A stretch of DNA of 64,000 bases from Halichondria panicea (Eukaryota > Porifera > Demospongiae > Suberitida > Halichondriidae). Where the stretch lies: assembly GCF_963675165.1 (NCBI RefSeq), contig NC_087393.1, positions 4,469,502 through 4,533,501 on the forward strand, in the 5' to 3' direction. Shown in pieces: positions 9,140-64,000 of this stretch. A program made the translations under genes and the position numbers. The first letter of the stretch is position 1, and every line of letters starts with the position of its first letter. The notes under the pieces are model-generated. The model was not told where the DNA came from, searched no databases, and saw only the letters and a program-made list of their open reading frames with translations.

Positions 9140-9395
9140 TTTTTCTGGAATGAAATAAAATGCATAGGTATAATTATGAGTAATGAAGTGCATGCATACA
9201 CATCTCTTACTTAGCGTGATTATACTGACGTCTCAAACAAGAAATTGCGAAGGGGCAATAAGTAGCAGCTAAATAGTAATACTCAGAGGCGAGTACGAGC
9301 TAGTTAGTTTGTCTTTTACTGATTTACTTCGTATCCAAGGTGATGTGCAGTGATTATAATTATTACATCACTAATGGCCCCAGGCACTATTCTTA
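9140..9395. other. Upstream flank of the Reeler gene
   Basis: Probable promoter/5' UTR region of the minus-strand Reeler gene. I see no definite regulatory motif. Confidence 0.4.
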
Positions 9396-43725: not shown

Positions 43726-45396
43726 TTAGGGTAAGCATTCGTAAGTGTTTTCAATTTCCTCTCTTTCAGTGTCAGCAGTCACACTAGTGTATACCTCATT
43801 CTCTGTGGTGGGTATTGAGGGGTCATTGTCAGAACTCGACTGTCTCACTCCAACATTTGTAATAGTCACATAGTCATAATTTCCTTCATCCTGAGCAGCC
43901 ACATTAACATTATCATACAACTCATCTTCTATGGTGGGTACTGAAAGATGGTTGATATTGCCATAGGCTTTATTTTGGGTCAGTTTCATTTCCACTTCTC
44001 CCTCGTTATTGTCATAGTAATCGTTTTCTTGAGCCAAGTTTTGTTTAGCTTCAGTATGAATGTGATCAATTTTTTCGTAAGTATCTTCCCCAGCTGTGTC
44101 ATAATCAGTGCGTTGGATAGTAGCTTTCTTATTTGTGGTTGTGGGTTTGTTAAGAGCTGAAAAATGTATAGCGTGCACATGACATACTGTTCGTAATAAT
44201 ATTGCATAAATGGTTACCTATATTAACTCTAGTTGCAGCAATGTATACAATAGCCGCCTACGGACGTACCTAGTGTCACAGTGGAGGTCTTTCTCTTCCA
44301 CTTGACAATAGCACAACACACAACACATACAAACAGAATGATGAGCATCACCACACCGGTAACACCTACGGCCACTCCTATACTCAGCATTTGTACTCCA
44401 GCATTCATTTCTGTCATATTGGGAAGTACAGAGTTAGTTGGCTTTGGAATCAGCTTTGTTGTAGTAGCAGAAGATTCCCTATTAAGTTGCATGGAAGTGT
44501 GTGTCGTAGCACTTTCCAATGATGCTGTTGAACGTTGGGTGGTTATTTCCGAGTTCTTTGCCGGGAAAGTCGATGATAGTTGAGGTGCTGAGGTTCTTGT
44601 GGTTTCGATGCATTTTGTAGGCACTAATATTGTGCAGTGGTCACATATAAACAGATGCATAAGCGCTCGGTGTACTTACTTACTACTCACCCCTTGTTTA
44701 GTTACTTGTATAGCTCTTATATAGCTTACCTATTATAGCTGTAATCAAAGGAGCACTATTTGTAGAGCGGAATTGCTCTGCATTGCACAGTGAAGTTGGT
44801 TCAATTCTGTCGCTGTTAATTGAATACAACACAGATTCATTAGTGTAGAGTTCATCACGACTGAAAAGTATTCCATTGTCATCATCAGTGCTAGTGAGAT
44901 TTAATCCGACCACGTCTCCTGGCTCCACTGATATCCATTCACTCTCTGGTACTGTCACGTTGATTAGACCTCTTTGAGGATCCAGAGAGCTTAATCCCCC
45001 CAGGCACATGTCTTGTAAGTAGTTTGCTCCAATCTTGCTATAACAGTTGTCTCCTAAAGATGAGTTGACTCTCCACACCTCAAAAGAAATAGAGTAGCAG
45101 TCTCGACCACTAGCTCTTTCCACAAAGGTTCTCCACTCAGTCACCACTCCACAGCAGTTGAACCTGTAGCTAGTGATGATAGCTTGGATGGGATTATCGC
45201 GAAATCGAGGTATTCTATCTTCTGTCCTCACAAAGTTTGGTAGAGGTAGTCTTCCATTACTTGCTTGAATACACCCATATGGTGTCAATTGTCCTATATA
45301 TACGTATATTAATTATACACAAGCTTATAATTATGCCTTACCATTACCCTTTCCCTGGAATATAGTCACAAGGCTTAGTACATATAGTAGCTTCAT
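43726..45396 (-). CDS. Tyr-tailed receptor R1, 4 exons
   Basis: No named family recognised. Exons 45396-45342, 45293-44730, 44623-44270 and 44156-43726 are all joined in phase 1, giving 467 residues. A signal peptide (MKLLYVLSLVTIFQ) leads into a ~190-residue ectodomain encoded by one exon. Its landmarks are ITSYRFNCCGVVTEWRTFVE, YSISFEVWRV and VEPGDVVGLNL, with several NxS/T sites, shared with the other receptors of the cluster. A Ser/Thr stalk and a transmembrane segment (VAVGVTGVVMLIILFVCVVC, ~290-315) follow, with basic WKRK just inside. The ~145-residue tail has YYDNNEG, AYGNINH, LYDNVNV, YDYVTI, VYTSV and TYECLP. Three of these are YxN, the Grb2-type SH2 consensus. A surface receptor with phosphotyrosine signalling is inferred. 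Part of the tail (VGVRQSSSDN, SIPTTENE) is shared with the receptor at 55499-58879. Confidence 0.82.
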
Positions 45397-46677
45397 TTCT
45401 TGAGCACCAATTAAAATTAGCCTGCTAATCTCTAAACTTAAAGAGAATGCACATACACAACGTATAAGGTACTGCCAAGGTTTCTGTTGTCTGCTTCAAA
45501 TAAATTAAACAGGTTACATGACATGACATCATTGCAAGAACTTTAACAAGTGCTTAATGTTCAGAATGAGAGGTTTCATATACACAAAACTGTGCCTGAG
45601 GGAGCTACGTGTATTTAGATCATGTTTGTCATAAATACTGCAATCTGATTGGTTAGAGGAAATGTTCTATCCAATTTAGAAAATCATGTACTTCAATAGA
45701 AAATCATGTACTTCACTTAGAAAATCATGTAGCAAAGATTAGATAAGAACATTCAAATCTGATTGGCTAAATACTCATGGTTGCTATGATCTAAAATGCT
45801 TAGACACTGTTTAGGAAGTTTCCACATGATTTAGAAGTCCTCAGGGCTAGTAGAACCCTCACTGCGTTCGGGATACTACAACCAGCCCTTTGGGCTTCTA
45901 AATCATGTAGAAACTTCCTAAACAGTGTCTAACTATTATATAGTGTACATAATTATAGTGTAACCGTAAAATGTTTGTACATGTAGACTGCTCATCTGCA
46001 TTGAAAGCACGAGCACAAATATTGACAAGAGGATAGCGATGCAATGTGGTTTCTTTGATCTTTGCTCAAGCAAGCAATGTCTGTCGGTTGTTTACTATAC
46101 ATTGAAAGTTTGTAGTGACCTTAATTGAGACTGTCATCAGTTTTTTCTTCTACAACACTCGCTCTACACAGTTACAATGTTGTTTTAGTTTGTAACGAAA
46201 TCTGCAGCTTTCTTACCATTATTTCTTTCAAAATTAACCAATATAGAGCCACAAAGATAGCTAGTGCAGTTTCATTCTTAGCCGATAATAATTATATTCT
46301 GTGCATGCTTTCATAAATGTACTGTACGTACTATGCTTACTGCTATGGACTGCTATGAACTGTTATGGTTTTTGTTTCTGTTTATAACACGTCATCAACT
46401 AACAGCGTATACTAATGATACCCGTGTCAACTATTGTTTCTTTGATGTATCACATATATGCTTTCGTAAAGCCTTTTAATAAGTATGTAGGTTTCAGAAG
46501 GAAAGATACACAAACACAATTTTGTAACTACACCATCACCCCACCCTCTCCAGCTGACAATAACGCTGAATTCAACAGCGTATGTATAATTATGGCTGAT
46601 GCATCCACACGTACACAATGACTGTTGTCAAAATCTATATATACACACACATTTTAGTGAACTTTATACTGTCATAA
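45397..46677. other. Intergenic between R1 and R2, with a fold-back element
   Basis: Contains the fold-back element at 45624-45936 and otherwise AT-rich DNA without recognisable genes. Short ORFs near 46125 and 46415 have no domain or splice support. Confidence 0.5.
45624..45936. mobile_element. TTAGACACTG fold-back element (~313 bp)
   Basis: The element runs from GTTTGTCATAAA through a CTGATTGG-containing arm to a 133-bp palindrome (45800-45932, TTAGACACTGTTTAGGAAGT and reverse complement) and ends TAACTAT. A close relative in opposite orientation lies at 58931-59239, where an empty site can be compared. No ORF. Confidence 0.75.
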
Positions 46678-49064
46678 TCATTTATCTACAGCATTCGCAC
46701 TAGACACTTGATGTGTGTATGTATATATGTACGTCTCATCTTCTGCAATGGGTTCCAAATGTTGAAGCTCTCTTGTTTTAGTGTAGGCTTTGTTTTCTGT
46801 CATTCTCATTACTGCTGGCCCTCCCATCCCCTCGTTTACATAGTAGTCAGGGCAACTCAGCCTCGGATAATCATACTCCACAATGAACGGGTTGCTAGGG
46901 TAACTGTAGATCTCACTCTGACGAGAGGTGTCAATTACTTGTCCGTATGATACGTTTTGTTCTGTTTGTGGATCTGTGCTTAAATCTATTGTGCTATATC
47001 GGTCTTGGATTGTAGTACTTGTTCTCTGATCGGATGTATTCAGGTTGACTCCTGGAATGGAATCAAAACACACACATCTAAGTGGAATCCAAACACACAC
47101 ATCTAAGTTCATATTGTTTTGCTTCCGCAATGTATACATTGTTATTGTGTAAACGGATGTAATTGTATAGCTCTTTTATGTATTCACTCCATAAGGTATT
47201 TCACCTCCTTTTGGTATGTTTCCTCTTTTCTTCATCACAATGCACACCAAAATAACCGCCAGCGTTACTAGTAGTGCTAGCACCAGCATTGCCACAGTCA
47301 TACCAACATGCAATCCTACGTTCACGTTTTGATTTGGCAAGGTAGGAAGTGCAATAGGTGTAGCTAGTAGGTTCTTTGAAGTCATGATAGGATGGTTAGA
47401 AGACTCGATAAATACTGTTAGTGGTGTGGTGTGTGTTTCCGTAGGCATTTCCCGTGTTGCAAGTAAAGTTGATAGCATGGTCTCCATAGATACTGGTGTA
47501 GACTTTATCCCTATATAATGTTGCACCTGATTATTAAGAGTGAATCATGGTCCAACTTACCTGTGTTTGTGGTAGTAGGTTTAGGGATTCTTGATGTTGA
47601 AAATGCAGTTGATATCTGGCCAAGTAAAGTTGGTAGCATGGTCTCCATAGATACTGGTGTAGACTTTATCCCTATATAATGTTGCACCTGATTATTAAGA
47701 GTGAATCATGGTCCAACTTACCTGTGTTTGTGGTAGTAGGTTTAGGGATTTTTGATGTTGAAAATGCAGTTGATATCTGGCCTAGAGTCTCCATAGATAC
47801 TGATGTAGAGCTTATTTCTAATGCTGCACCTGAAACCATTATACGTACAGTAGTACTGACAATACACATGTGTGAATGTTACAACTTACCTGTGTGTATG
47901 GTAGTAGTATAAGTAGTGGTGAGGAAAATAGAGGATGAGGTCGATGTTGGGCAGACCAGCGTGGATGTGAATGTAGAGGGGCAGTTACCGTTCACCGTAG
48001 TAGCTGTAGGTGACATTGAGATACTAGTAGTAGCATCGCGACCATTATACGTTACTATGTTGAAATTGACATCGTTTACTGCATGATGTCTGATCTAATT
48101 TGCGTATAGCGGGTAATTTTCGTGGGACAAAATTTTCGTGGTTGGAGGTCTGACCACGAATATTTTACCCACGAATGAAGCGACCTTGCCTACCTTTACC
48201 TGCAGTGCAAGTAGCAACCACGAAAATATTATCCCCACGAAATGACTAAAATAATATTGCTCAACCACGAATATTAAATTTTTGCCCCCCCAAAAGTTAC
48301 CCGCTATCAGACATGTACGGTATGCGTATGTGTACTAACTTCAGTAATTATGTATTTTGTAGTTACTGTATCGTTGCTTACCCAAGGACACTGAGATGAT
48401 TGGTCCAAGGCTTGTAGACATGCTGAGGTCCCCTGCATTGCCCACTTCCAGTAAGCACTCATTTTGTAGTTCAGAGTTACCAGTCGCATACCATAGCTCC
48501 TCAAGATTGAAGTCCCGGCTATCAAACTTCAGTCCTACATTAGTGCCGCCATCCTCCTGTTCAAGATAGTATCCAACCACATCTCCTGGTTGGAAGTCAA
48601 GTTGCTCACTGTTGGCTGGTATTTTTTCAATGTCACTGTTGGTATTAGGATTATTAGCGAAGGTAAGTAAAGGAAAAGAGTTCTCTCCAATTTTAACAAA
48701 TCTGTTGCTACTCATAGGCCTCCATATCTGGAACTTTATTGAGTACACTTCACCACCACTAGCCTCCAAAAAAGCTGACCAACCGCCGACTTTCCCACAG
48801 CAGTGGAACTTGTAACTTTTGATGATGACTTGGATCGGATTCACCTCAATTCGAGGGGCATTTCTTCCCGGGTTTTGGAATCTAGGCAAACTGTCTGCAG
48901 AGTTAGCCCTAAGGCATTCTCGAGCTTTTGACATAATATGTAAATTAGATAGTAAATACTGTGAGCAGGCTATGTGCGTACAGTTACATGTCATTCTCAC
49001 CTTTACAATAATCTACTGTGGTTATTAGCATAATTGTGACAACTGTCCTTAGTGAAATGTTCAT
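46678..49064 (-). CDS. Tyr-tailed receptor R2 with YVNEG motif
   Basis: Same architecture as the other cluster members. Exons used: 49064-49001, 48924-48382, 48054-47890, 47829-47722, 47510-47205 and 47051-46678, all in phase 1, giving 519 residues. The signal peptide is MNISLRTVVTIMLITTVDYC. The ectodomain has IIKSYKFHCCGKVGGWSAFLE, YSIKFQIWRPM, FVKIGENSF, LDFQPGDVVGYYL, EELWYATGN and GNAGDLSMS. Thr/Ser stalk exons (one with CPSTFTSTLVC) precede a transmembrane segment (VAMLVLALLVTLAVILVCIV) and KKRG. The tail includes YGQV, EIYSYPSN, EYDYPR, YYVNEGMGG, NKAYTKT and YIYTYTHQ. YVN fits a Grb2-type SH2 ligand. A further stalk exon copy at 47561-47672 is frameshifted and must be skipped. A TACCGTATAG MITE occupies intron 2. 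Confidence 0.8.
47479..47830 (-). repeat. Tandem duplicated stalk exons (162-bp period)
   Basis: The block with TCTCCATAGATACTGGTGTA recurs at 47481 and 47643 (162 bp), with a more diverged third copy near 47787. Each unit holds a stalk exon with its acceptor and donor. The middle unit has four T where its neighbour has three (AGGTTTTAGGG against AGGTTTAGGG), so that exon is out of frame. Confidence 0.88.
48103..48322. mobile_element. TACCGTATAGCGGG-family MITE in R2 intron
   Basis: Left GCGTATAGCGGGTAATTTTC, right GGGTAACTTT-like arm closing with ACCCGCTA and TACGGTA-type bases, with multiple internal CACGAAT/ATTCGTG inverted words. Confidence 0.7.
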
Positions 49065-49867
49065 TCTTGAAGAGAGCCAGATGGTTCAAGATTAGCTATA
49101 ATTATAGCTGGTGTTTATAGCATATGCTTTATATATGGTCATTGATTCAGAGCATTATTCATCAGCTGACAAAGTGATGAATTGTGTACATGGCATATTA
49201 GAGTAAATGAGAGACCGTTAATAATGGATGCCTTCCTTATTATAGTAAACATGCTACAAGTTAATTGTTATAGCCATCGCGTGAGCACTGGCAGCCAATG
49301 CATTAATTGCATACCATTCTTTTAGCTTCGTGCAGAATTATCTATAAAGCGTGCCGTTGAATATTTACATGCACACAACATTGGTGATTGATAGTTTGAT
49401 TGATAGTAACATGATTACTAAATAATTAAGCCGTGTGGAAAGTATAATGTATATTCACGGTTTAGTGTAAGTACGTTGTACTGACTTTTACATTGCTAAT
49501 TTAATATCTAACATACATAATCATAAGCACTCATGCAGTGCGCTAGTGTTAGCGGTCACACTAGTGTGTGCCTCATTCTCTGTGGTGGGTATTGAGGGAT
49601 CATGCTTTTGTTATGTATTAAACATTTAATGTGATGGTAAGCCATGCATGAAATATGTACGTAATACCGTATTTATACTTATAATAAGTACATTACTGTA
49701 TAACAATACACTGTATGAGATAATACCCAACACACAGCACATTCTCTAAGGATGCTAGACCTATAGTAAATGTATTGCCTATAACATAATCTTCAGTCTC
49801 AGTTTTAGCAGTCACACATTACTAGATCAGAGTCCCATGCATGTGTCTCTGTGCATATGCAGCTCCA
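49065..49867. other. Intergenic between R2 and R3
   Basis: AT-rich. The only recognisable content is a short tail-exon relic at 49540-49602 (separate entry). Confidence 0.5.
49540..49602 (-). pseudogene. Relic of a receptor tail exon
   Basis: About 60 bp closely match the tail-exon segment of R1 and R5 that encodes PTTENE and YTSVTA, then similarity stops. This suggests a deleted receptor copy stood here. Confidence 0.7.
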
Positions 49868-50444
49868 TCATATACATGCTTCGCTCAATACATCAATGCA
49901 TTGGTCATCATTTGCTACCGTGACAACCAATCCGCTATCTGACATAACATGGTTTGAAACACTTGATTCTTGTATTTGTGAAATTTCACCAGAGTTGCCT
50001 AATCTTCCATAAGCTTCGTTCTTGCTAATTACTGGATCTGGCCCTGCTTTGTTCAATGTACCAATGCAGTGGTCATCATTTGCTACCGTGACAACCAATC
50101 CGGCCCTATCTGATATACGGAACTTTAATCCTTGTGTTTGTGAAATCTCACTAGAGTTGCCCAATCTTCCATAAGCTTCATTCTCAGTGCCAATTATTAG
50201 ATCTAATCTCTGTGGTGGATGTGGAGGGGGCGTTGTCAGAGCTTGGCTGTCTAACTCTCGTCTCATTTCTTGTGGGTGACCATTTGTATTAATGTCACCC
50301 GGATCAGTATCGATGTAGTCGTACATAGGTTCTGTATTATGTTCTTCAATTCTCTCTGTGTGATAAGAAACATGGAGTATAATAGCTGTATACATACTTG
50401 TTGCATTTTGAGTGGGCAGATCAAATGAAACACTGTGCCAATAT

Positions 50445-51033
50445 TAGCCTCGATTCAAGGCCGATTAAAATACGGCCTGGTACTTATTGCAGGGGTGATA
50501 GTGCGCATGCGCTTCAAATTACCCAGAATATGGATAATCGTACCACGAACGTAAAACCTTAGTAAATTATCCGGAAATTAGTCCGTTTACTAAGAATATG
50601 TTCCGTAATACTTATCTCAAAGACTGAGTTCTGTGAAGCTGTGGCTTATGCCGTCTATTGCGTTGGTCTAGAAGGCTTAAACACTAGTTTTAAGACAGAA
50701 GAGGCTCTCATCTACGTCTAGGATGGTCCTATAGCCGGGTTGTCTTTGCAAGTGGCAGTTTGAGGCACCATACACTTCTCATATAGCCTGTACAGATCCA
50801 AGGTAAGACATCCTGACCATACAACCGTCATAGAGGTAGATGAGAACCTCTTCTGGCTTCAGACTAGTGTGAAACAACGCAATAGAGAGCTAAGCTGATG
50901 TTACAAAGATAGAAAATAGATGAAGGAAGAAAAAGGGGATTCCCCAGATTCTGGTGAATAAACTAACGCATGCGCACTATCACCCCTGCAATAGGTACCA
51001 GGCCGTATTTTAATCGGCCTTGAATCGAGGCTA
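50445..51033. mobile_element. MULE-like TAGCCTCG element (589 bp)
   Basis: Ends TAGCCTCGATTCAAGGCCGA and reverse complement, with identical 9-bp flanks TGCCAATAT at 50436-50444 and 51034-51042. Inner arms are also inverted (GGGGTGATAGTGCGCATGCG; a second layer around AGACAGAAGAGGCTCTCATC), so the whole element can fold back on itself. It is inserted in the R3 intron before the tail exon. No transposase. Confidence 0.9.
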
Positions 51034-51085
51034 TGCCAATATCTGCCATATGGCACAGGTCAAACGGTGAACTGTGCCATACTAT

Positions 51086-51178
51086 GGCATGGGTGAAGTT
51101 ACCTAAAGCCCACCCTCCATCTAGATACTGGCATAGTATGGCTGAAGTTACCTAAAGCCGACCCTCCACCCAGTAACC
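51086..51178. repeat. Two-copy direct repeat
   Basis: A unit of about 45-50 bp with TGAAGTTACCTAAAGCC and GACCCTCCA-like blocks is repeated once. It lies in the R3 intron. Confidence 0.8.
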
Positions 51179-51867
51179 TGAAACGGTCCCTTTTATAGTA
51201 TAACACTGTCAACAGATTCAGTGGTAGGCAGAAAACGTTTTTCATGCGGCTGGTGCATTCCACAGCCGACTACAAATAGTTGCAAACTATAGTTGTCCTA
51301 TAAAAGGAGTGATGTGTACACGGAAAGGAATGCAACAAGGAATGCAACAAATCAGTTGTTACACAGCTATAGATCTACTGCATACTAATTGCACTAAGTA
51401 CATGGGATTTAAGCAAAGAGACTTCTGAATCATCATTGTTGACTCATGTATATACGTCATACACACTTACCCATGCAGCCATGCCTTTTTATGCATATCA
51501 AGGTAGAAATAGATATGATTATGGCTACTACAACCACCAGTTGAAACTACACCAGCAATAACAAACACAGTCGTATCGGCAGTAGACATGGTGTTGTTGG
51601 TGGGTAATGTGGTCTGAGTAGGTTGAATCTGTGTCGTGGTAGTAGCAGGTTCAGCAGTAGTACCAGGTGCAGCAGTAGTAGTAGTAACTATTGTACTTGG
51701 AGCCTGCTGAACCACTCCCGTTCGCTGATTGGCCCAGTAGGTCATCCGTGTTTCAACTACAGCAAATCTGCAGTGTGTAAACAATGTGACATAATAAATA
51801 ACAGATAACAGTAGCTACTGAAAGACTAAAACACACTATTGAAGGTGTTTTAGGTGTGGGGGGACTA

Positions 51868-52065
51868 TAACCATATCGCAGGTTATTTTGAGGGACTAAA
51901 TGTTCGCGAAATGCTCAAACTAAACATTTTGCGGATTATGTTTTCGAGGATAGAGGTTCAAACGACCACACCCCTACAGTAGAGAAGTTCCGGAAGTAAA
52001 CCAATTTTGAGGTTCGAGGTCAAACCTTGAAATTTAGTGCCTCAAAAATAACCAGCTGTACGGTA
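51868..52065. mobile_element. TACCGTATAG-related MITE
   Basis: Left ACCATATCGCAGGTTATTTT, right AAAATAACCAGCTGTACGGT, with CCTCAAA/TTTGAGG words inverted. It lies in the R3 intron between exons 3 and 4. Confidence 0.65.
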
Positions 52066-52853
52066 CTATGCATATTTACTCAAGCGTAATAGGTTCCAAA
52101 CTCACCCAAATCTGATATCTCCAGTGTTACCCATAGGAGCTGTCCAAGTGAAATAAATGATGTCTTTATCAGCAGGTGAGTTGTGGGTGACTCCATCCTG
52201 AAAGGAAAAGTGGTTAGAGTGCAAATACAAACCAACATTTTGGTCTCAGTTTTGAACCAAGGATCATAATAAAATATGCAACTTAGCTTATTAGACCAAA
52301 GCTCCTACTGATATAAGCTAGGCCATGCATCAACGGTTAGCTAAACTGCAGATCTGCTTACCGTGTTAATAGGACAGCTGCTGAGTCTGCTTTGGTCTGC
52401 CAATGGCCCTGTTGGAGCGAAGACTCCAGCACGAGTGGTATCATCGTTCATCAGCCTTGCTTGCACGAAAAATCCTCTGAAAGTGCCTCCAACAGTTGCG
52501 TTAGCAATCGACACTACAAAAAAGCAAAAGTGGAAGCTTTTTCAGATACCTAACAAGAGCCTTCAGGTAGAATTGATTAAGCAGAACATGCAGCGCTGCA
52601 CCATACTGCAATGCAATATTATAATTCTCAACGTACAGGTGTAGGTTCTTCCAAGGTAGAATGTAAAAGAGTTGTCACTAGCATTATAGAAGGGCATGAG
52701 ACTAATAGCGTAGGGGACATCACTGGCCTGTGGCTGGGCTAAATGAATGGGGGAGAGGCTATCACAGGCACCAGCAGGTGCACCACTTGAATAACCCTCC
52801 ACAAGCAGTCCTATGGAGGACATCACCAAGGAGACACCGATAAGCAGCTTCAT

Positions 52854-53552
52854 ACTCACAACAGGCTATTGAGACAATCTGCAAAGGAAAGAAAGTAACT
52901 CAAAGATTTCCAGGAAAATGTTCACATTAATTTATAGAGAGCTACACTTATTTTATCTATATATGTGACTATGCTTGGTCTATGTATACTCATGCACCTA
53001 AAATGCAATACAGCAGAAGCTCTTTACTCACCACTCAGTCTGATCTGCACAGACGTACTGAATATTTGTAGGTTAAGGGTGCCCGCACATAGTGACATAA
53101 TTTAACCACAAAAATGCAACGTTTAGATCACGTGTGCAATTTGAAACTTGCACTTGCAATATTTAATTTCAATGCGTGCGCTAGAGTATAAAGTATCAAT
53201 TGTCAGACAGAACATATAATCAGACAGCTGCCAGAGGAGAACGGATGGGCGAAACAAGCTGATTTTTCACCTGACAATAGATCTACCTATAAACAATGTA
53301 ACCTCCAAAAATATACACCAAAATGTGGTGTGTCTGATAAATTGATTAATCAGACAAAATAAACATAATATCGGACACAGGAACCAACGAATCACTAAAG
53401 AGGCAGAGCCACAAGATTTAATAGCCCAACATATCACAAAACAAAAGAGCTACATGTACCCTACACATGACAGCAGCAGTTACAAAACCACTAACTGCAC
53501 TGCACATAGACTATATTATAGCTGTTACAAAGTGCACATAGATTGATACTCA
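52854..53552. other. Intergenic upstream of R3
   Basis: No gene seen. Likely includes the R3 promoter. Confidence 0.4.
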
Positions 53553-54231
53553 CTCGAGATGATTGGTCCAAGGTTTGTAGACATGCTGAGGTCCCCTGCA
53601 TTGCTCTTCCAACAAGCACTCATTTTGTAGGTCAGAGTTACCAGTCGTATACCATAGCTCTTCAACATTGAAGTTACTATCAAACAATTAACAGACCTCC
53701 GTTATTGTCACCAGCCTGCTCGAGATTGTAACCAACCACATCTCCTGGTTGGAAGTCAAGTTAATGGCTTTGGCTATGAGACTAGCATCAGCCAGTGTAG
53801 GAAATGAGTTCTCTCCGATTTTAACAAATCTGTTATCCCCCATAGACCTCCATATCTGGAACTTTATTGAGTACACCTCAGTATGAGCACCACCACCAGC
53901 GTCTACATACGCAGCCTAACCAGCAACTCTCCCATAGCAGTATATATAGAACTCGTAGCTTTTAATAATGGCTTGGATCGGATTCACAGCCATTTGAGGG
54001 GCACGGTTTCCTGGGTCTCCAAAGCTATATAGGCAGACTGTCTGCTCCATCAGAGTTAGCACGGACACAATCCTGAGCTGTATACAATCATAAACAAAGC
54101 TATGAAATTATCTGTAGATAGCTAGTATGACACTGACACTGACATTGTCATTGTGCACCTCTGTACATGCACTTACCTGTAACATGACTAGCAATTAGTA
54201 CCAGTGCTAGTGAAATAGTGATTAGTGTCAT
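53553..54231 (-). pseudogene. Receptor pseudogene R4 (5' half only)
   Basis: A signal-peptide exon (54231-54177, MTLITISLALVLIASHVT, good donor) and an ectodomain exon (about 54079-53553) closely follow the receptor at 55499-58879. The ectodomain has in-frame stops (for example in the LPI-stop-LWRP and VAG-stop-AAY regions) and small deletions after FQPGDVVGY-like sequence. No stalk, membrane or tail exons follow before the next gene. It is a truncated, non-functional duplicate. Confidence 0.85.
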
Positions 54232-54809
54232 TCCTATTGTATTAGATCTAGGGTGCATGCGTAGATCTATATAGACGTCTATATGTGTTTCCTGGTGATC
54301 AAACTTGATTGTGGTCATATTGTTGTATGCTTGAAGGGTTTCTCTTATTTGAAACCAAAAATATCCACATACACAACTAACACGCATGTACGAGCAAGCA
54401 TATACAAAGTTCGGTTTCTTTATAGGTGGAATTTCCTTCGACATGTGTCCATCAATCAGTTTGTAATCAGTAATCACAACATTGTAATACTGTAGTTCAT
54501 ACTTACCGCTTTACAATGAACCCTAATAAGTTTTCTAATAGCAGCACTATTATGCAGCTTCACATTACACACCACTATAGATCATGCAGTACCACACCGA
54601 CCTTATCAGATGCACTCTCCGTATTTAGAGTTGAATGTGGATTTTTGCAACAAGCGTATAGTTGAGTGAACCTTGGACCCAGTTCCTGTAGTCCCACTTG
54701 TTTAGAATTCCTGAAAACGTACCTACACAAGAACAACAAAACTGTCCTCACAACTATCACAACAGATCTACATGCATGAATGCACAAATTAACGACTAAT
54801 TACCCAGTG

Positions 54810-54966
54810 GAACATCAAGGTGCCACTTCGGCTGTAGTTTGAGCTGCTACTGACTGAGCAGCACACAAGACACTATTATTATGCAGTACAGGATTGTGTT
54901 TATTTCAACTTACCTGATAAGCTGAAAACAACTAGTATTAGCATAAACATGTTAATTCTTCCCATC
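54810..54966 (-). pseudogene. Truncated 5' copy of R6
   Basis: The signal-peptide exon MGRINMFMLILVVFSLS (54966-54915, GTAAGT donor) and the beginning of the next exon (CAGCTCAAACTACAGCCG) are near copies of R6 at 62251-62085. Similarity ends after about 30 bp of the second exon. The upstream flank to about 55345 is also duplicated from the R6 upstream region. Confidence 0.8.
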
Positions 54967-55498
54967 TTGACAGTCCAGAGTCCTGGTCTCTTAATTACAT
55001 ACAATAAATTATTCTGGTGCTTGTGAACTTTGTTTGCATGTACTCTCGGTTTACTTTAAGCATCCCATTATTTTTTAACCACGCTCAATTTAATGGTGCA
55101 TGGGTAACCCGAAACTTATATTGCATTTTCATTGATCCAAGAACCTTGCAACAATGCAATTAAGAGCAGACCATCCTTTTCATATAAAAGCCATGCAATA
55201 TAATAATGTCGCCTATTGTGTGTTTATTGCCACTGTACACTTTTTAACCCACAAAACACATGTATTTACTATTATGGCTTCAAGCCAAACTTTATACAAC
55301 AACAATCACAGCATGCAGCTGTTGTGGAAACTCAAAATCAGAAGCTTTTTGCATAAACTATAAGATACACTCTCTGAAAACATTCCATCGCAGGACCATA
55401 CAAATTATTGCTGTAGTTTTACTCTACCATAGGCTATATAGACATTATATGTGAAGTTTTGTGGAACTCTGAGAGGGTCACCCGTTAGGTTTTGTTCA
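54967..55498. repeat. Duplicated R6 upstream region
   Basis: Sequence from 54967 to about 55345 matches 62252 to about 62635 with scattered differences (shared words ACAATAAATTATTCTGGTGC, GTGACCCGAAACTTA-type and CATTGATCCAAGAACC). This is a segmental copy of the promoter side of R6. Confidence 0.75.
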
Positions 55499-58400
55499 TT
55501 ACACAACATAGTCATAATATTCTTCAGCCTCGGTGTTAGCAGTGACACTAGTGTATGCCTCATTCTCTGTGGTGGGTATTGAGGGGCCATTGTCAGAACT
55601 CGACTGTCTTACTCCAACGTAGGCTTCATTTCTTATCATTGCCACTTCTGCTGTGACATATATAAATAGTATACATGTATATTTATAGTGCATATAGGTT
55701 TGAACATACCTCTTTGTCGTTTGTTTTCCCTCTTCTTTGTCACCACACAAGCCAAAAGCATCACTGCAGTCAGTATGACCAACAGCACTAGTACTGCAAC
55801 AGACACTGCGATTCCAGCAAACAGTCCCACGTTCACTTCTTGAGGTTGTGTTGTAGTAACTGCTGGTGTGACTTGAGGAGAGTTCATGGGAGAACTGCTT
55901 GGTTGTGGTAGACCAGTGGTTGTTATAGGTGCTGACACAGAGCTAGACTCAGCTTGAAGTCCGAAGTCACTACTAGAGGGTAATATTGTCATTCCAATAT
56001 TGTCTAGAGTAGCACTGCTTGGTTGTGGTAGACCAATGGTGGTTATAGGTGCTGACACAGAGCTAGACTCGGCTTGAAGTCCGAAGTCACTACTAGAGGG
56101 CAGTATTGTCTCAGAGGATATTCCAATCTTGCCTTGAGTAGCACTTACTGCTATGGTTGTTGGTTCTGTAATTATTGTGTACATGACGAAAATACATAAT
56201 ATTATACCTTCAGTCTGTTGTCTATTATGTAGTTTGTATAAGGTAACAGGGCGTGTGCATGTCCTTTCTATTACATGGTCGTTTTATGCAATATATATAT
56301 ACAAGCAACTAGCTCGCCCTCATACTTGTGCCTGTCTATTTCAGTCATTATGCTATACACACAGAGGAGGTTCGACACGGTCAAAAGGTCATTAATGAAT
56401 TAATCACTTGCTCTATGTTTCTAATGGAGATTCAACTTGATGCTGATTCATCGATGTACCCCAGATCTCTCATCATTTTCTCTTGATTCTTCAAACAAAA
56501 TAATAACAATCAATCCAATGTACCCCTCAGGTACATCAGTAGGAAGCGAGAAATTCTAGCTTAACCTTTTGAACTCTACACCACCCCAATTTTCACCAAC
56601 GCTTTGGAAACGCAAGAAAAATACAAGCATTGGCAGCCTTCAAAGACGTCGCTTAGACTATAATTATAAGCTTAGTTCTTTTACATCAAAAAAAGGTATT
56701 AATGTGCCTTCAAACGATTAAAGTACAGTTTGCGTTATATGCGTGTTAAGCATTGAATCCAAAGGTCAGGAATGCAATACGCTAGTGTTGTTATCCTTGA
56801 CCTTTTGACCTTGTCGAACCTTCTCTGTATTACACATGCATAACTCACCATTAACAGTTAATGGGGTCACAGTGGCCACATAGGTGGGGTTTAGGACCAT
56901 GGTCGAGGTGGAGGGACAGTCCACAGTGGTTGCTATAGTGTACATTAATAATTGAATTAAAACTATGCATGCAGCAATAACCTATCAGTTGGATATGTAT
57001 ACCATGCTGAAAGTAATGCTTGCATGGTTCTCGATGTTATGTCTACGTAGTTCGGTTACTTGTTGCAGCCTTTTCATAAAAGTGCATAGCAAAACTTATC
57101 CATGAAGTGTTGCTACTCTACTTAGTAGTTAGCTCTGTACTTAGAACGCTATAGCTATATATACAGACAAAATCAAATTGCACTGGAAGCCTTAACATCC
57201 TAGTATGTATATATAACACCGACAAAATCAATCACTACCGCCCGCATCAGTTTATTCTTCTCATTATTTCTACTACGCATGCATGTGGCACAAAATAGTG
57301 TGCAAATATGACATAATGACAAAAGCTGCCCACCCGCATGCAATTAGAAAAACTTCTGTACGAGAAACCAGAGTATCCTTGGAGTGGCCTTATATAGGTA
57401 GGAGGGAACAGCTGCAAGTTGACATATCAATACCATGACAAGAGGCCCAAAAATGTGTTACCATGGCTATGACATCATCACATTGCGGAACTGACTTCTA
57501 CCTTAGCATGCCTAGCCTCGTTCCCAGGCCTTCCTTTTTCTTGCTGCATCATAGCATCATAGATACCATATAGCGAGACGATATAAATGTTTGTGGTTTT
57601 CGCTGATTAAGCATTAGCCTTGATTTATTTTAATAGGCCTTGAATCGAGGCTTATTAAGCATGTACCGCAAACATTTATAATCCAGGATGACTTTATTAC
57701 CATGCGTGCATGCCGCTGCAAAATGTTTTTCCGCGAATATTTATACCCTCGAGCTCGAATAATACGGTATCTCAACATAAATAGAAGGCAGCAAAAACAA
57801 AAAGACGAAATGAGGCAGCAAAGAAAGACATGAGCGTATTTTTTCTATATAGTTCTTATGAACGATTGTGACAAAGAACAGAAAAGGAAGAGCCTGTGTA
57901 GAGGCATGCATACAGTAGAATCTCGCTATACCGGTATTCCGGTTCTCTGAAGTATGCCGCCTCGGTATACGGGCCATTTGGTACGAATTAATTGCTAGCT
58001 AGATGTTACTGCACAAAACTTGCCCTGAAATGCGGCCCCTTTGATGTGATCTGCCAGTATGCTATAAGACGAGAACTGACATCTATAGAATTCATGAAAA
58101 ACTCCAATGGGGGCCAGGTGTATATTTTCCATTTTTACTTGAGTGTTCTGACAAAATAACATAGATTGATACTCACTAATTGATATTGAGATGATTGGTC
58201 CAAGGCTTGCAGACATGCTGAGGTCCCCTGCATTGCCCACTTCCAGTGAGTTGTCATTTTGTAGGCCAGAGTTACCAGTCGCATACCATAGCTCTTCAGA
58301 AGTGAACCCAGCATCAAACTGCAGACCTCCATTAGTGCCACCATCCTGCTGGAGATAATATCCAACCACATCTCCTGGTTGGAAGTCAAGTTGTTGGCTG

Positions 58401-58879
58401 GGAAGTGGTGTTGCAGCAATGTAGCTGTTAGTAAGAGTAGCAGGGAAAAAGGAATTCTCTCCAATTTTTATGCAACTTGCACTATTCTCACTCGTTGGTC
58501 TCCATATCTGGAACTTTATGGAGTACGCATTAGTATGACTATTGCCACCAGGCTCCACATACGCAGCCCAACCACCAACTTTCCCACAGCAGTGGAACTC
58601 GTAGCTTTTAATGATGACTTGTATCGGATTCACACGAACTATAGAGTTCCAATTATTTGGGTCTAAGAAGCTAGGCAGACTGTCTGCTCCATCAGAGTTA
58701 CCACGGACACATTCTTGAGCTGTACAACAATCATAAGCAAAGCTATGAAATTATCTCAGTACTATAGCCAGTATACACTATAATACATGACACTGTCATT
58801 GTGCACCTCTGTACATGCACTTACCTGTAACGTGATTAGCAATTAGTACCAGTGCTAGTGAAATAGTGATTAGTGCCAT
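55499..58879 (-). CDS. Tyr-tailed receptor R5, 5 exons
   Basis: Exons 58879-58825, 58719-58177, 56932-56849, 56165-55710 and 55650-55499 are all phase 1 and give 429 residues. The signal peptide is MALITISLALVLIANHVT. The ectodomain shares the cluster pattern: IIKSYEFHCCGKVGGWAAYVE, YSIKFQIWRP, IKIGENSFF, LDFQPGDVVGYYL, SEELWYATGN and GNAGDLSMSASLG. A short stalk exon (VDCPSTSTMV) and a longer one follow. The longer one holds a tandem duplication of about 40 residues (ILPSSSDFGLQAESSSVSAP twice). Then comes a transmembrane segment (VAVLVLLVILTAVMLLACVV) and KKRENKRQR. The short tail has RNEAYVGV, NEAYTSV and EYYDYVV. The large intron holds MITEs at 57564-57769 and the 39-bp element at 57615. 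Its role is unproven; it is the best-preserved relative of the R4 and R8 pseudogenes. Confidence 0.8.
57564..57769. mobile_element. TACCGTATAG-family MITE with nested micro-element
   Basis: Left TACCATATAGCGAGACGATA, right ATAATACGGTA, with internal ATAAATGTTTGTGG and CGCAAACATTTAT arms. It contains the 39-bp insertion at 57615-57653. Confidence 0.7.
57615..57653. mobile_element. 39-bp minimal TAGCCT element
   Basis: Starts TAGCCTTGATTTATTTTAAT and ends CTTGAATCGAGGCTT. It is flanked by identical 9-mers ATTAAGCAT at 57606-57614 and 57654-57662. Apart from its size it fits the MULE-like TAGCCTCG family. It is inserted inside the 57564-57769 MITE. Confidence 0.7.
57911..57990. repeat. Single end of a pogo-type element
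   Basis: TACAGTAGAATCTCGCTATA resembles the 3052-3350 TIR, followed by GGTATTCCGG and GGTATACGGG words. The other end is not seen. Confidence 0.5.
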
Positions 58880-58930
58880 TTCTATTGTAGCTACAATCTG
58901 TAGTCTAGCTGCGGTGCATAGATCTATATA

Positions 58931-59239
58931 ATAGTTATAGACACTGTTTAGGAAGTTTATCCTGGTTTAGAAGCCCAAAGGGCTGGTTGTAGTATCCCGA
59001 ACCTAGTGAGGGTTCTACTAGCCCTGAGGGCTTCTAAATCATGTCGTAAACAGTGTCTAGATCATAGCAATTATTCAAGTCTCTAGCCAATCAGACTTGT
59101 CTAAACTTTGCTACATGATTGTCTAAGTGTTGTCTAAGTGAATTACATGATTGTCTAAGTATAAGTATATTACATGATTTTCTAAGTTAGATAGAGCACT
59201 TCCTCTAACCAGGCAATCAGATTGCAGTTTATGACAAAC
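58931..59239. mobile_element. TTAGACACTG fold-back inserted upstream of R5
   Basis: An inverted relative of 45624-45936. The palindromic core spans about 58936-59060. It is bracketed by ATCTATATA (58922-58930 and 59240-59248). The homologous flank of pseudogene R4 (GTAGATCTATATAGACGTCT, 54261-54280) lacks the insert, giving an empty-site comparison. Confidence 0.75.
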
Positions 59240-59384
59240 ATCTATATATATAGACGTCTATTTACAGTGTCCTGATGACCAGACTTTGTGGCCATATTAG
59301 GTTGCCTGAAGGGTTTCTCTACTATAATTATACTGAACCACATACATACAACTAACACATCAGGAAACAGCTTGTTTGACACTA

Positions 59385-59745
59385 ATACTCACTGTCTAAT
59401 TTACCCAAGGAGAAAAGTCTTCCACTTCTCACCACACTGGAAGTAAAAAAATCAACTGGAGCTGATGGTATCTCGGCTCTAAATGCCAAAAAAACACAGC
59501 ACATTCTATAGTACCCAGCCTCTCTGGTAAGGTTCCCAGAGACTGAAAGTTTGTTCGAGTGACTCAAATTCCAAATTCTGGTGACAGAGAAAATCCTGCT
59601 AACTACGGACCAATACCTGTTATCAGTGGAAAGGCACATACTGAGTGTCATGGCAACCCATGCACCTCCATGCAAACTCTCTCCTTGTCTACTCACCAAT
59701 GGGGCTTCACTGCAGGGAACAGCACAACTTCTTATCTTTTTCACA
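59385..59745 (+). pseudogene. LINE-type reverse transcriptase relic
   Basis: Motifs of a non-LTR retrotransposon reverse transcriptase remain in shifted frames. KKSTGADGISALNAK near 59447-59490 matches the K-x-x-G-PDGI block. TQIPNSGDRENPANYGPIPV near 59560-59620 matches the VxxIPKxGD...NYRPIxL block. HQWGFTAGNSTTS near 59695-59735 matches the QFGFRxGxST block. Frameshifts and stops between blocks show decay. The downstream catalytic YxDD part is absent. Confidence 0.75.
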
Positions 59746-59869
59746 AGACTTCCTCGAATTCACTTTTCATAATTGGGCTAAGCCTATACTGTAGATCCAT
59801 GCACTTTTTGCACAAATTCAATTTTATAGTGGTCGTTTCTACTATGCCACTACTTAAATCCCGATTAGA

Positions 59870-60085
59870 TTATGTCAGCCTGCAATCTGATTGGTTAGAG
59901 GTAGTGTTCCTTTCAACTTTAAAAATTATGTGTATACTTCACTTTAATCATGTAGCCTGATTGGCTAGATATTCGTGGTTGCTATAATACATGATCTAAG
60001 CTTAGACACTATTTAGGAAGTTTTCGCGTGATTTAGAAGCACTAATGGCTTAGTGGAACCCTCACATACGTTCGGGATACTTGCA
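59870..60085. repeat. Partial TTAGACACTG fold-back
   Basis: Matches one arm and half of the core of the 45624-45936 element (CTGATTGGTTAGAGG to GTTCGGGATACT); the second half is missing. Confidence 0.65.
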
Positions 60086-60342
60086 ATTAGAGAGCTTAAA
60101 TTGTTTGTTGCAGGTATATGCATGTGGAGCTAATAAATAGCTTCAGACTAACTATAGTTTATTCGTATACAGGAGCAACGTGATCGAGTGTTCAGAACTT
60201 CTTCAGCATGAGTAAAACTTGGCAATGGCAAGAAATATTAAGCGATTTAAAAAGACAATGCTTTTGCCTGAGGCAGTAGCATGCATTACTGCCTGACATC
60301 TCTTTAACTAGGGAGGGGGCTAAACATCGAGGCAAGCGTCCT

Positions 60343-60406
60343 ATAGCAATCGTGTGGGCCCAGTGAAATATCTAGCAATCGTGTGGGCCCAGTGAAATCT
60401 CTGCAT
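60343..60406. repeat. Two-copy 30-bp direct repeat
   Basis: AGCAATCGTGTGGGCCCAGT occurs twice in direct succession, each time followed by GAAAT. Confidence 0.9.
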
Positions 60407-60712
60407 GCCATGTCTTTGTGCAACTATACACATGCACTTGAAATCTCAAAAAGAGTAATAAAAACATTCAAAGCACTGTTGTTCATCAGCTGCACAACAA
60501 AACTGTTGAATGTGCATAGCATATACTTTTAAACATAAAATTATAATTATAATGTTATAGCCATACAAAAATAGTTTACCGATAATTATAATGTGTACTG
60601 TCAAGCATTTGCCATGCAGAGAATGTTATTATGCTACACAATTAACACAGGATGCTATAAGCCTTATGTAGCTAATGCTATATAATCTTCATGCATGCAG
60701 ACAGTTTAGCAG

Positions 60713-62251
60713 TCATGTGTATATATTGTCTACTGCTCCTCTCATTCCCTCGTTCATGTGGTCATCACTTGTCGTGGCAACTTCCTCATAGGTTGGGTTC
60801 CCATTTGTTAAGATGTCACCTGGATCAGTATCAATGTAGTCGTACATAGGTTCTGTATTATGTTCTTCAATTCTCTCTGTGTGATAAGAAACATGGAGTG
60901 TATACATAACTTTATTGCTTTTTAAAAACTCGTTTGTGCCTATAGTAACTGTCACTCGTGCCTTGCAGGCACTCGTGCAGTTACTGGCCACACTTGTGAT
61001 AAATCTTCAATATCTATAGGATAATATCATAGTATATAAATACCGATGCATAGTCAATACATGGTCAATTAAACAACCAATTAGTAGGAAGCTATGCAGT
61101 ACAATACTATTGGAAGTAGGAGACCCTGAATCATTGTTGTGGTATGCAACTCATGTATATTGTCATGCACACTTACCCATGCAGCCATGCCTTTTTATGC
61201 ATATCAAGGTAGAAATAGATATGATTATGGCTACTACAAGCAGCCCACCAGTTGAAACTACACCAGCAATAACAAACACAGTCGTATCGGCAGTAGACAT
61301 GGTGTTGTTGGTGGGTAATGTGGTTTGAGTAGGTTGAATCTGTGTTGTAGATTCTAGACACGATAACGGAAGATTTTGTGGAGTGCATATTCCGTTAGCC
61401 AAAACAGTGCCTAAAGTTGCAGCTGTAGTTTCTGTAGGAGATAGTTAAACAATGTGTCATTTTTGTGCATGCAGTCTGATTCTATATATACAAATGTATG
61501 GACTTGTGTAGCGCTGCATATTATTCTTGATGTATATAACTCACCGTACTGCAGAGTAATGAGCGGGAGAGAGGATTGTTTTTGGACTTCTTTGTCGCAC
61601 GTATACAGCTCACAGGGATCGCTTGACGACACTTTGATAAGTAGTTCTGAGCTCAAGTCGGTGCTATACAAAGCTACACCAAAACCTCGTGTAAGTCCTT
61701 GTGATGGTGGACTGTACCAGCCCAGTACATCATCTGGTTGGAAATGAATTCGTTTGTTTTCAGAAATTTGACTAGTGAGCGTTGCGAATGTGATGTTGGA
61801 ATTATCAAGTGTCACTGTTTCAGTTCGAGGGCGATAAGTTAATAGGTTAGATCCAACTAGATCGAATTTTTCATCAAAATCTTGACTTGGCCTCCAAACT
61901 TGGAGATATAATAGGTGGGTAAGTCTTAGACCAGTCTCTTGATCTTTGACAGTGACTAGAGCTCTCCATTCTGTGATTTGTCCATGGCACTCAAACTTGA
62001 TCCCGGGAGTGATAACTTGTATATTCCTGAAATCCGGAGCTATCTCAGTGAGATCTGCACTCGGTTGGAGAGAGTCAACGGCTGGAAACCCAGTGCCACA
62101 TTGAGGAACCACTTCAGTTGTAGTTTGAGCTGCTACTGAGCAGCATATAGACACTATAGTATAATGCAGTACATCAGGATTGTGTTTGTTTCAACTTACC
62201 TGATAAGCTGAAAACAACTGGTATTAGCATAAACATGTTAATTCTTCCCAT
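60713..62251 (-). CDS. Tyr-tailed receptor R6, 4 exons
   Basis: Exons 62251-62200, 62132-61545, 61431-61177 and 60876-60713 are all phase 1, giving 352 residues. The signal peptide is MGRINMFMLIPVVFSLS. The exon 2 acceptor has two tandem AGs 3 bp apart (start 62135 or 62132), which would add or drop one residue. The ectodomain is a diverged version of the cluster module: IKFECHGQITEWRALV, LLYLQVWRPSQD, FDLVGSNLLTY and IHFQPDDVLGWYSP. After a Thr-rich stalk comes a transmembrane segment (AGVVSTGGLLVVAIIISIST) with KRHG inside. The 54-residue tail has MYDYIDTD, TYEEVATT, HMNEGMRG and a final IYT. HMNEGMRG aligns with the YVNEGMGG motif of R2 but has His in place of Tyr. The membrane and tail exons are near-identical to those of the Reeler-type R3, whose ectodomain is unrelated. 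Confidence 0.82.
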
Positions 62252-62609
62252 CTTTGACAGTCCAGAGTCCTGATCTCTTAATTACACACAATAAATTATT
62301 CTGGTGCATGTGAACTGTGTTTGTACTCTCGGTTTACTTTAGGCATTCCATTAACCACGCTCAATTTAATGGTGCATGGGTGACCCGAAACTTACTGCAT
62401 GTTCATTGATCCAAGAACCTTATTGTATATCTGGATATTTAGGTTGCAGACAATCCTTTTATTGTAAAGCACTATACGTTGTGTTGCCTATTGCGTGCAT
62501 ATTGCTATATATACTACACACTTTTTACCCCACAAAACACATTCATAATTATATGACTTCATGCAACAACAATCACAGCATGCAGCATACAGTTGTTGCC
62601 AATAAATTT
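62252..62609. promoter_or_regulatory. Upstream flank of R6 (duplicated block)
   Basis: Non-coding upstream region of R6. A diverged copy sits at 54967-55345 in front of the truncated R6 pseudogene. No specific promoter motif asserted. Confidence 0.45.
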
Positions 62610-64000
62610 TTCAATGAATAGAAGCCTTTTGCAGTCATGGAGCTGAAATCACCAGCCGAATACACACAAGGTGAGTCGAGTGCAAAACAACGAGTAGAAT
62701 CGAACCAAACATTATAAGAATTGTCTCCAGCAAACTGGATACCATCATCATCATTATACTACTCTCCAGATAGAACCCGACCACATCTCCTGATTGGACC
62801 TCAATCCTCTCACTCTCTAGTGGTACCCCAGTCACTATTCCTCTGTCAGTGTTAGGATCAGCCAGTGGAATAGGTGAGAATTCAACAATAGTGTATTGGC
62901 CATCAGGAGGAGAGTTTGGTCTCCACACTTGGAATGAAACGGAATAAGGTTGATCATCAAAATTTACAGGGCCTCTTCTCTCCACAAATGCTCTCCACTC
63001 AGTAATTTGCCCATAACAATTGAACTTGTAGCTAGGTATAATGACCTGTACTGGGCCCCCACCACCGGGTCTGACAAAGTTTGGTAGAGGACAGGTACCA
63101 TCCGTTGCCATCAGAGAGTCTGCAAAACAGTCAACCGGTTAATATAGCCACACTATTGTAATGAGAAGGAACTTCAATGTTGAAGCACTAATACACACAC
63201 TGTCTGAAGATGACCACACAGCTATTTTATGAGTACGTTCTCAACTCACTGTCTACAACAACTGGAGTACCAGGTCCAGTGGTGATGGGGGTGGGTGTGG
63301 GGGTGGGGGTGGGGCAGAACATGGTTGAGGTGAAGGTAGAGGGCCAGTTATATAGCCATATGCAGAGGTAATTGCTATAGTGAGGGAAGTATGAGTATAA
63401 AAGCAGTAACATTTGATCACACATATAATTATGTGTAATACTTTTACAGGAAACACATCATGTTCACACTCACTAAGTGATATGGAGAGGATTGGTCCAA
63501 GGTTTGACTGAGTCAAACCTTGTCAGTTTGTAAACATGCTGAGGTCCCCTGCATTGCCCACTTCCAACAAGTTGTCATTTTGTAGGTCAGGGTTACCAGT
63601 CGCATACCATAGCTCTTCAGAAGTGAAGCCACTATCAAACTGCAGACCTCCATTTTGGTTTATGTTGTCTTCTAGATAATATCCAACCACATCTCCTGGT
63701 TGGAAGTTAAGCTGCTCACTGTTGGCTGGTATTTCTTCAATGAGTCTAGTCAGTATAAGTGAAGGAAATGAGTTCTCTCCAATTTTGTTATCCCCCATAG
63801 GCCTCCATATCTGGAACTTTATCGAGTATAAGCATTTATAGTATGACCACTGCCACCAGGCTCCACATACGCAGCCCAACCATCAACTCTCCCACAACAG
63901 TGGAACTTGTAACTTTTAATGATGACAAGGATCGGATTCATTTCAATTCGAGGGGCTCCATTCCCTGGGTCTCCAAAGCTAGGCAGACTGTCCGCTCCAT
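62610..64000 (-). pseudogene. Receptor R8, two ectodomains, multiply broken
   Basis: The locus runs off the right window edge. Three receptor-like exons occur in order on the minus strand. An R5-like ectodomain exon (edge to about 63473) has YSIKFQIWRPM, LNFQPGDVVGYYL, EELWYATGN and GNAGDLSM. A stalk exon (about 63363-63250) has WPSTFTSTMFC and a TPTP run. An R1-like ectodomain exon (about 63117-62610) has CPLPNFVRPGG, YKFNCYGQITEWRAFVE, YSVSFQVWRP and VQSGDVVGFYL. Lesions: a frameshift at NAYT/YSIKF near 63830, a small insertion giving a stop after DLSM near 63525, a shifted stalk frame, and a 1-nt shift at an ATGATG run near 62757. No membrane or tail exon follows. A double-ectodomain arrangement is not seen in the intact copies, so this may be two fused remnants. 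Confidence 0.75.

Follow-up and report, generated by a model that had tools for sequence, protein, structure and literature searches.

Probable modular type I receptors with an unassigned ectodomain and tyrosine-rich tails form a tandem cluster in the sponge Halichondria panicea

Related exons follow one another head-to-tail on contig NC_087393.1 (C17) of the sponge Halichondria panicea, which raises the question of what kind of protein they encode and what such proteins might do. The stretch analysed here (the window) is 64,000 nucleotides long (C17:4469502-4533501), and the exons lie between its positions 43726 and 64000. Gene models were built from minus-strand frames, followed by exon modelling on splice signals, and genome searches covered the 131.5-Mb genome with its 39 contigs. 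The exons are best explained as a tandem birth-and-death family of modular type I recognition receptors with phosphotyrosine signalling, a reading that we consider probable; type I topology is predicted, and an immune or allorecognition role is plausible. New here is the unassigned variable domain outside the immunoglobulin (Ig) superfamily, and diversified, clustered receptors with tyrosine tails are of a known kind.

Four gene models are complete and free of stops, namely A (467 amino acids), B (556), D (429) and E (353). In each, a signal exon and an ectodomain exon come before a stalk rich in Ser/Thr, a hydrophobic membrane segment and a tail that contains Tyr. The internal coding exons have lengths divisible by three, GT-AG borders and phase-1 joints. 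Gene A (43726-45396, minus strand, as are all genes and copies of the cluster) has four exons: signal (45396-45342), ectodomain (45293-44730), stalk plus membrane segment (44623-44270) and Tyr tail (44156-43726). The seven exons of gene B (46678-49064) are signal (49064-49001), ectodomain (48924-48382), three stalk exons (48054-47890, 47829-47722 and 47671-47561), stalk plus membrane segment (47510-47205) and Tyr tail (47051-46678). At 47460-47781, gene B contains a tandem duplicate of a 161-bp stalk-exon unit (99% identity); the length of the stalk may therefore change with the number of exon copies. Gene D (55499-58879, five exons) consists of signal (58879-58825), ectodomain (58719-58177), stalk (56932-56849), stalk plus membrane segment (56165-55710) and Tyr tail (55650-55499), and gene E (60713-62251, four exons) of signal (62251-62200), a divergent ectodomain (62135-61545), stalk plus membrane segment (61431-61177) and Tyr tail (60876-60713); both were used as queries for the genome search. 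The N-terminal signal passes the hydropathy cut-off in D and E only, and the hydrophobic starts of A and B were judged by eye. With the ectodomain of gene D as query, the copies in B, A and E match at E 9.3e-65, 2.7e-15 and 8.9e-5, respectively, which is more than chance would give.

The sequence-only reading that preceded this work had described at least seven loci lying head-to-tail on one strand, four intact and the rest broken, all of them with every part. The arrangement stands, with seven ectodomain exon copies on the minus strand at 43726-64000 in a cluster that extends past the window end, and so do the four complete genes. The number of loci has to be lowered insofar as the two copies at 62.6-64.0 kb probably belong to one gene. 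In addition, copy C (53556-54231) departs from the full architecture: its signal exon (54231-54175) is followed by an ectodomain interrupted by in-frame stops (about 54088-53556), and a search with the membrane and tail exon types chosen as queries found none up to the next gene.

To which family does the ectodomain belong? The earlier reading had left it unassigned and had held that a profile search placing it in a well-described non-receptor family would speak against a receptor. A Pfam search with 31 ectodomain members returned no family (best E 0.12), a profile search of PDB sequences revealed no solved-structure relative, and single-sequence PDB searches and Pfam on two distant members gave no relative either; the domain remains unassigned in both collections, and the receptor reading was not refuted by this test. 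These 31 members, which make up our profile (A3), are near-full copies (31 of 32, one identical copy being excluded); hits covering fewer than 140 profile columns (16 of 48) were excluded from the profile and from the divergence tests. Membership in the Ig superfamily was rejected on the basis of no Ig Pfam match up to E 1 in the 31 members and no chain described as an immunoglobulin among the top 50 of the 1325 Foldseek matches. Likewise, a prokaryotic or viral origin was rejected, since no relative was confirmed among 221 and 152 pattern matches in the two collections scanned (bacterial/archaeal and viral, respectively). Pfam detected no Calx-beta in the 31 ectodomains, no SRCR domain in the receptors and no carbohydrate-binding jelly-roll module (CBM32, F5/8 type C); fold matches are weak, with a template modelling score (TM-score) of 0.53 at best among the top 50.

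An AlphaFold2 model from 31 paralogues is all-beta, with a predicted local distance difference test score (pLDDT) of 78.9 and a predicted TM-score (pTM) of 0.80; an earlier structure prediction with four sequences had reached a pLDDT of 48. Foldseek against the PDB gave no match with E at or below 0.001 (the best E is 0.0022); phage fibre and capsid proteins, together with carbohydrate-binding modules, head the top 50 of the 1325 matches, whose query-length TM-scores do not exceed 0.53. The ectodomain thus appears to be a jelly-roll-like sandwich outside known families. No recognisable description of the family was found in the literature searched, where most subscription papers were missing.

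The variation of the domain follows its predicted structure. The replacement/silent ratio is 0.23 in predicted strands vs 0.79 outside them among 12 plus-type copies, and 0.29 vs 0.72 among eight D-type copies; circular shifts of the strand mask reached the strand/outside difference in none of 178 cases for the plus-type set and in 6 of 178 for the D-type set. In both sets, the stretches at about 22-30, 60-64 and 126-130 are some of the most variable. The framework of the domain is therefore constrained and its loops are freer, and positive selection is not established.

The tails are rich in YxxPhi motifs. In 26 related tails we counted 107, against 32.4 in shuffles, and in nine tails hand-picked from the 26 for the shuffle test, 41 against 12.7 expected, a count that none of 2000 shuffles reached. 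Meanwhile, the extended motif N-x-[AVT]-Y-x-x-Phi occurs 11 times in the nine chosen tails, vs 0.3. Genes at 5.22 Mb of C17 have Tyr tails of another kind, in which NNAYDV or YSQL/YSHL units are repeated. Elsewhere in the window (29585-31626, minus strand), a membrane exon accompanies a 498-amino-acid open frame with Tyr motifs, and no ectodomain was recognised upstream; this frame holds two YVNEGLG sequences, resembling YVNEGMG of the gene B tail.

Are these tails tied to one ectodomain? Exon sharing had been proposed from the sequence, and the membrane-plus-tail cassettes do recur with other ectodomains. Gene R (49871-52853) has a signal and a Reeler ectodomain at about 52853-51700, a stalk/membrane exon to 51471 and a tail at 50356-49871. 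A Pfam search of its joined exon translations gave PF02014 at E 1.3e-21, which passes the cut-off; other copies lack a Reeler domain. Two stalk/membrane pieces of gene R, of 104 nt and 81 nt, share 98% identity with gene E, and 109 nt of its tail share 92%, so that the Reeler domain here precedes a cassette of the gene-E type. The genome search returned seven Reeler matches, four of them on C17 (one at C17:4436921-4437187); the exon-split domain of gene R is absent from these matches, so the search misses split domains.

On another contig, C11, the Tyr tail of the family occurs three times (4886032, 4925786 and 4959937), and four genome searches with ectodomain queries found no ectodomain of this family there. 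The first of these tails adjoins three sushi exons (Pfam E 1.7e-11, 3e-11 and 2.8e-9), which are followed in order by a Calx-beta-like end below the Pfam cut-off, a membrane exon, an intron and the tail. Membrane exon, intron and tail together are 77% identical to C17 over 730 columns, and the match stops near the start of the membrane open frame. A match of the C11 tail to PF18597 (SH3_19; E 0.00098), which is under the cut-off, was taken as chance. Two related cassette types can be distinguished: a D/plus-arm type, found with the orphan ectodomain and beside the C11 sushi domains, and a gene-E type, found with the orphan ectodomain and behind the Reeler domain of the frame-broken gene R. In all 53 gene pairs with divergent ectodomains, the silent sites of a 33-codon tail module have diverged less than those of the ectodomain (mean synonymous divergence 0.20 vs 0.68). 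Nearest-distance pairing joined gene B to the gene A tail in seven of these pairs, and two ectodomains of one gene were counted apart; the result holds in 46 of 46 pairs when the seven mispaired ones are removed. The cluster thus illustrates how signalling cassettes can be used again with another receptor ectodomain and on another chromosome.

How far does the family extend in the genome? High copy number and pseudogenes had been expected from the window, and both are borne out by several broken copies and by 44-53 genome matches per ectodomain query. The gene D query gave 49 matches (47 on C17), gene E 44 (all on C17), a copy from 5.22 Mb 51 (48 on C17) and a plus-arm copy 53 (52 on C17), where the four match sets overlap and contain the queries. 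Weaker, distant ectodomain matches lie on C5, C6, C10 and C16. On C17, an inverted pair of arms lies at 4.51-4.57 Mb (minus) and 4.60-4.64 Mb (plus); other copies are clustered at 5.22 and at 5.58-5.60 Mb or are scattered. The fetched blocks of C17, with the region 4.570-4.606 Mb left out of the counts, hold 48 open-frame ectodomain hits, 32 of them near full length and two of those identical; a GTRAGY donor in phase 1 lies no more than 12 bases from the aligned domain end in 27 of the 32. The cluster at 5.58-5.60 Mb contains members from several tree branches, as block duplication would give. In the window, block 53591-59737 is repeated at C17:4542846-4549032 (92.7% over 6279 columns), which marks it, by sequence, as a recent segmental duplication. 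An interspersed element, possibly a small transposon, is present at 45612-45942 and 58922-59252, the two copies being 80% and 76% identical to C17:5596165-5596463.

On the reading of the family as tyrosine-signalling receptors, an intact gene would send to the secretory route an N-terminal beta-sandwich of about 180 residues (two in some genes), followed by a Ser/Thr-rich stalk and a single membrane helix; the cytoplasmic tail carries YxxPhi motifs, frequently in the form N-x-A-Y-x-x-V. The variable loops would recognise a diverse ligand carried by another cell or by a microbe, and the receptors would cluster; Src-type kinases could then phosphorylate the tail tyrosines, and SH2 proteins could dock on the phosphorylated tail, whereby the response of the cell would be switched. 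Binding by loops, clustering, phosphorylation by Src-type kinases and docking of SH2 proteins are the general workings of tyrosine-motif receptors. For the sponge genes, we infer splicing, surface expression, ligand binding, phosphorylation and the immune or self/non-self role.

A number of results weigh against this reading. All gene models derive solely from splice signals and conservation, and the splicing of the C11 sushi exons to the membrane exon is deduced from order, strand and proximity. Gene R is frame-broken: its membrane exon is out of frame and falls five bases short of the length in gene E. If, together with the several broken copies, this meant that exons of unrelated or mostly dead genes had been joined into chimaeras, the architecture would be an artefact; we regard this as very improbable, given four complete models in the window, a donor kept in position and phase in most near-full copies, and an ectodomain core under purifying selection. 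The structure, built on 31 paralogues, comes from one of five AlphaFold2 models, and the remaining four reach a pLDDT of only 61-65. Strict immunoreceptor tyrosine-based inhibition motifs (ITIMs, [SIVL]xYxx[IVL]) number 6 vs 2.8 in the nine tails, a count reached by 126 of 2000 shuffles, and 14 vs 7.2 in the 26 related tails, with a shuffle maximum of 16; because the tail copies are related to one another, their motif counts cannot be treated as independent. In five pairs that join copy 4608346 to a near relative, it is the tail that has diverged more than the ectodomain, and synonymous values of about 0.7 for the ectodomain approach saturation. With respect to selection, the D-type set has several variable residues inside predicted strands too, the whole-domain ratio of non-synonymous to synonymous divergence (dN/dS) has a median of 0.51 (151 close pairs out of 495), and 3 of the 69 ratios listed, which range from 0.36 to 1.12 and come from a listing of 70 of the 151 pairs, exceed 1. 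Local windows with ratios above 1, up to 1.77, have low silent counts, and these ratios stem from low synonymous values, of which gene conversion could be a cause. The whole-domain median would also suit ordinary receptors for adhesion or development that had multiplied by neutral tandem duplication, with loop variation reflecting relaxed constraint, and loops tend to vary more than strands in any domain. However, two subfamilies vary in overlapping loop stretches, with the strands staying at 0.23-0.29, and membrane-plus-tail cassettes recur with differing ectodomains, so that we consider neutral expansion quite unlikely.

What might such receptors recognise? Innate immune receptors sensing pathogens or symbionts, whose diversity would follow microbes and not self markers, have a real chance, somewhat below even, of being the right answer. 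Copy-number expansion, pseudogenes and freer loops agree with this, as does the weak structural likeness to jelly-roll and carbohydrate-binding modules, although no fold match is significant; in a sponge, expansion of SRCR receptor genes is reported in the accessible part of one study (PMC10855680). An allorecognition receptor complex, in which polymorphic loops compare self and non-self between individuals, seems unlikely. Inverted and duplicated blocks on a single contig would suit it, and the combination of clustering, a type I build and YxxPhi tails is similar to that of the fester co-receptors (FcoRs) of Botryllus, as far as these are described in the accessible part of one source (PMC12065747); on the other hand, the words receptor and transmembrane do not occur in the main text of an Amphimedon grafting transcriptome (PMC5450542). 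Returning to the preferred tandem family of phosphotyrosine-signalling receptors, one may ask whether it amounts to a variable-receptor system without Ig domains in an early-branching animal, with a beta-sandwich, hypervariable loops and interchangeable phosphotyrosine cassettes on several ectodomain classes, and supplies the receptors with which a sponge recognises microbes or tells self from non-self. We put this forward tentatively, as rather unlikely at present.

Known systems share parts of this architecture. Vertebrate NITR, KIR, LILR and CEACAM genes form tandem clusters in which diverged ectodomains sit over few signalling modules; their ectodomains are of the Ig superfamily and their motifs are canonical ITIMs and immunoreceptor tyrosine-based activation motifs (ITAMs), whereas Pfam and PDB-sequence searches show no sequence relation to the sponge ectodomain. 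Hydractinia Alr genes are clustered, type I and accompanied by pseudogenes, and differ in their Ig-like ectodomains, as the sponge ectodomain has no Ig match. Among the traits of Ig-type receptors (Alr, FcoR, KIR, NITR), predicted type I topology and a tandem cluster are thus found here, and an Ig-fold ectodomain is not. Sponge aggregation factors are Calx-beta proteins. The host genome has at least 151 Calx-beta matches (150 of 645 candidates scored), an abundance compatible with a sponge, and simple linkage of the cluster to Calx-beta genes was rejected, since none of the matches listed is on C17; a likeness exists in the Calx-beta-like end of the C11 locus. One Calx-beta match (C6:2382998-2383231) lies within an open frame of 10,065 amino acids.

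Nearest in working are the FcoRs. According to the accessible part of the source cited above, they are type I proteins encoded together at the Botryllus fuhc locus, with Ig and sushi ectodomains, and their tails can carry ITIMs and hemITAMs, a long tail also the core Y-x-x-I/L/V (PMC12065747). Clustering, type I topology (predicted in the sponge) and core YxxPhi tails are common to both; in contrast, no Ig match was found for the sponge ectodomain and there is no clear enrichment of strict ITIMs. In its parts, the C11 locus with sushi domains is closer than the C17 cluster. In the same accessible text, Hydractinia candidates carry ITAM and ITIM motifs, sponges, cnidarians and ascidians do not share conserved candidate allorecognition proteins, and mechanisms are called a "complete mystery" (PMC12065747). 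The cluster supplies loci, loops and tail motifs for genotyping and testing in a sponge.

The remaining copies of the cluster are incomplete. Window 62633-64000 aligns continuously to C17:5591153-5589722 (74.8% over 1499 columns), where two consecutive ectodomains are open, and for this reason the two copies were read as one two-ectodomain gene, F. Its first ectodomain (63486-64000, the frame extending about 43 bases beyond the window end) and its second (62638-63138) are both frame-broken, and the approximate linker between them (63230-63457) lies inside the alignment, its likeness to the linker of the open copy being judged by eye. A tail-module remnant at 49524-49604 matches the tails of genes A and D in a short open frame of 29 amino acids with one stop, and an orphan signal exon of the gene-E type lies at 54909-54965 (95% match). 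Farther along the contig, C17:4716053-4768517 contains eight hits of an arbitrary pattern several kb apart, and one unit within it (C17:4727500-4731500) resembles, by eye, a seven-membrane adhesion G-protein-coupled receptor gene. At 8741-9232 of the window, the minus strand carries an open frame with a signal-like start and a Cys-containing body.

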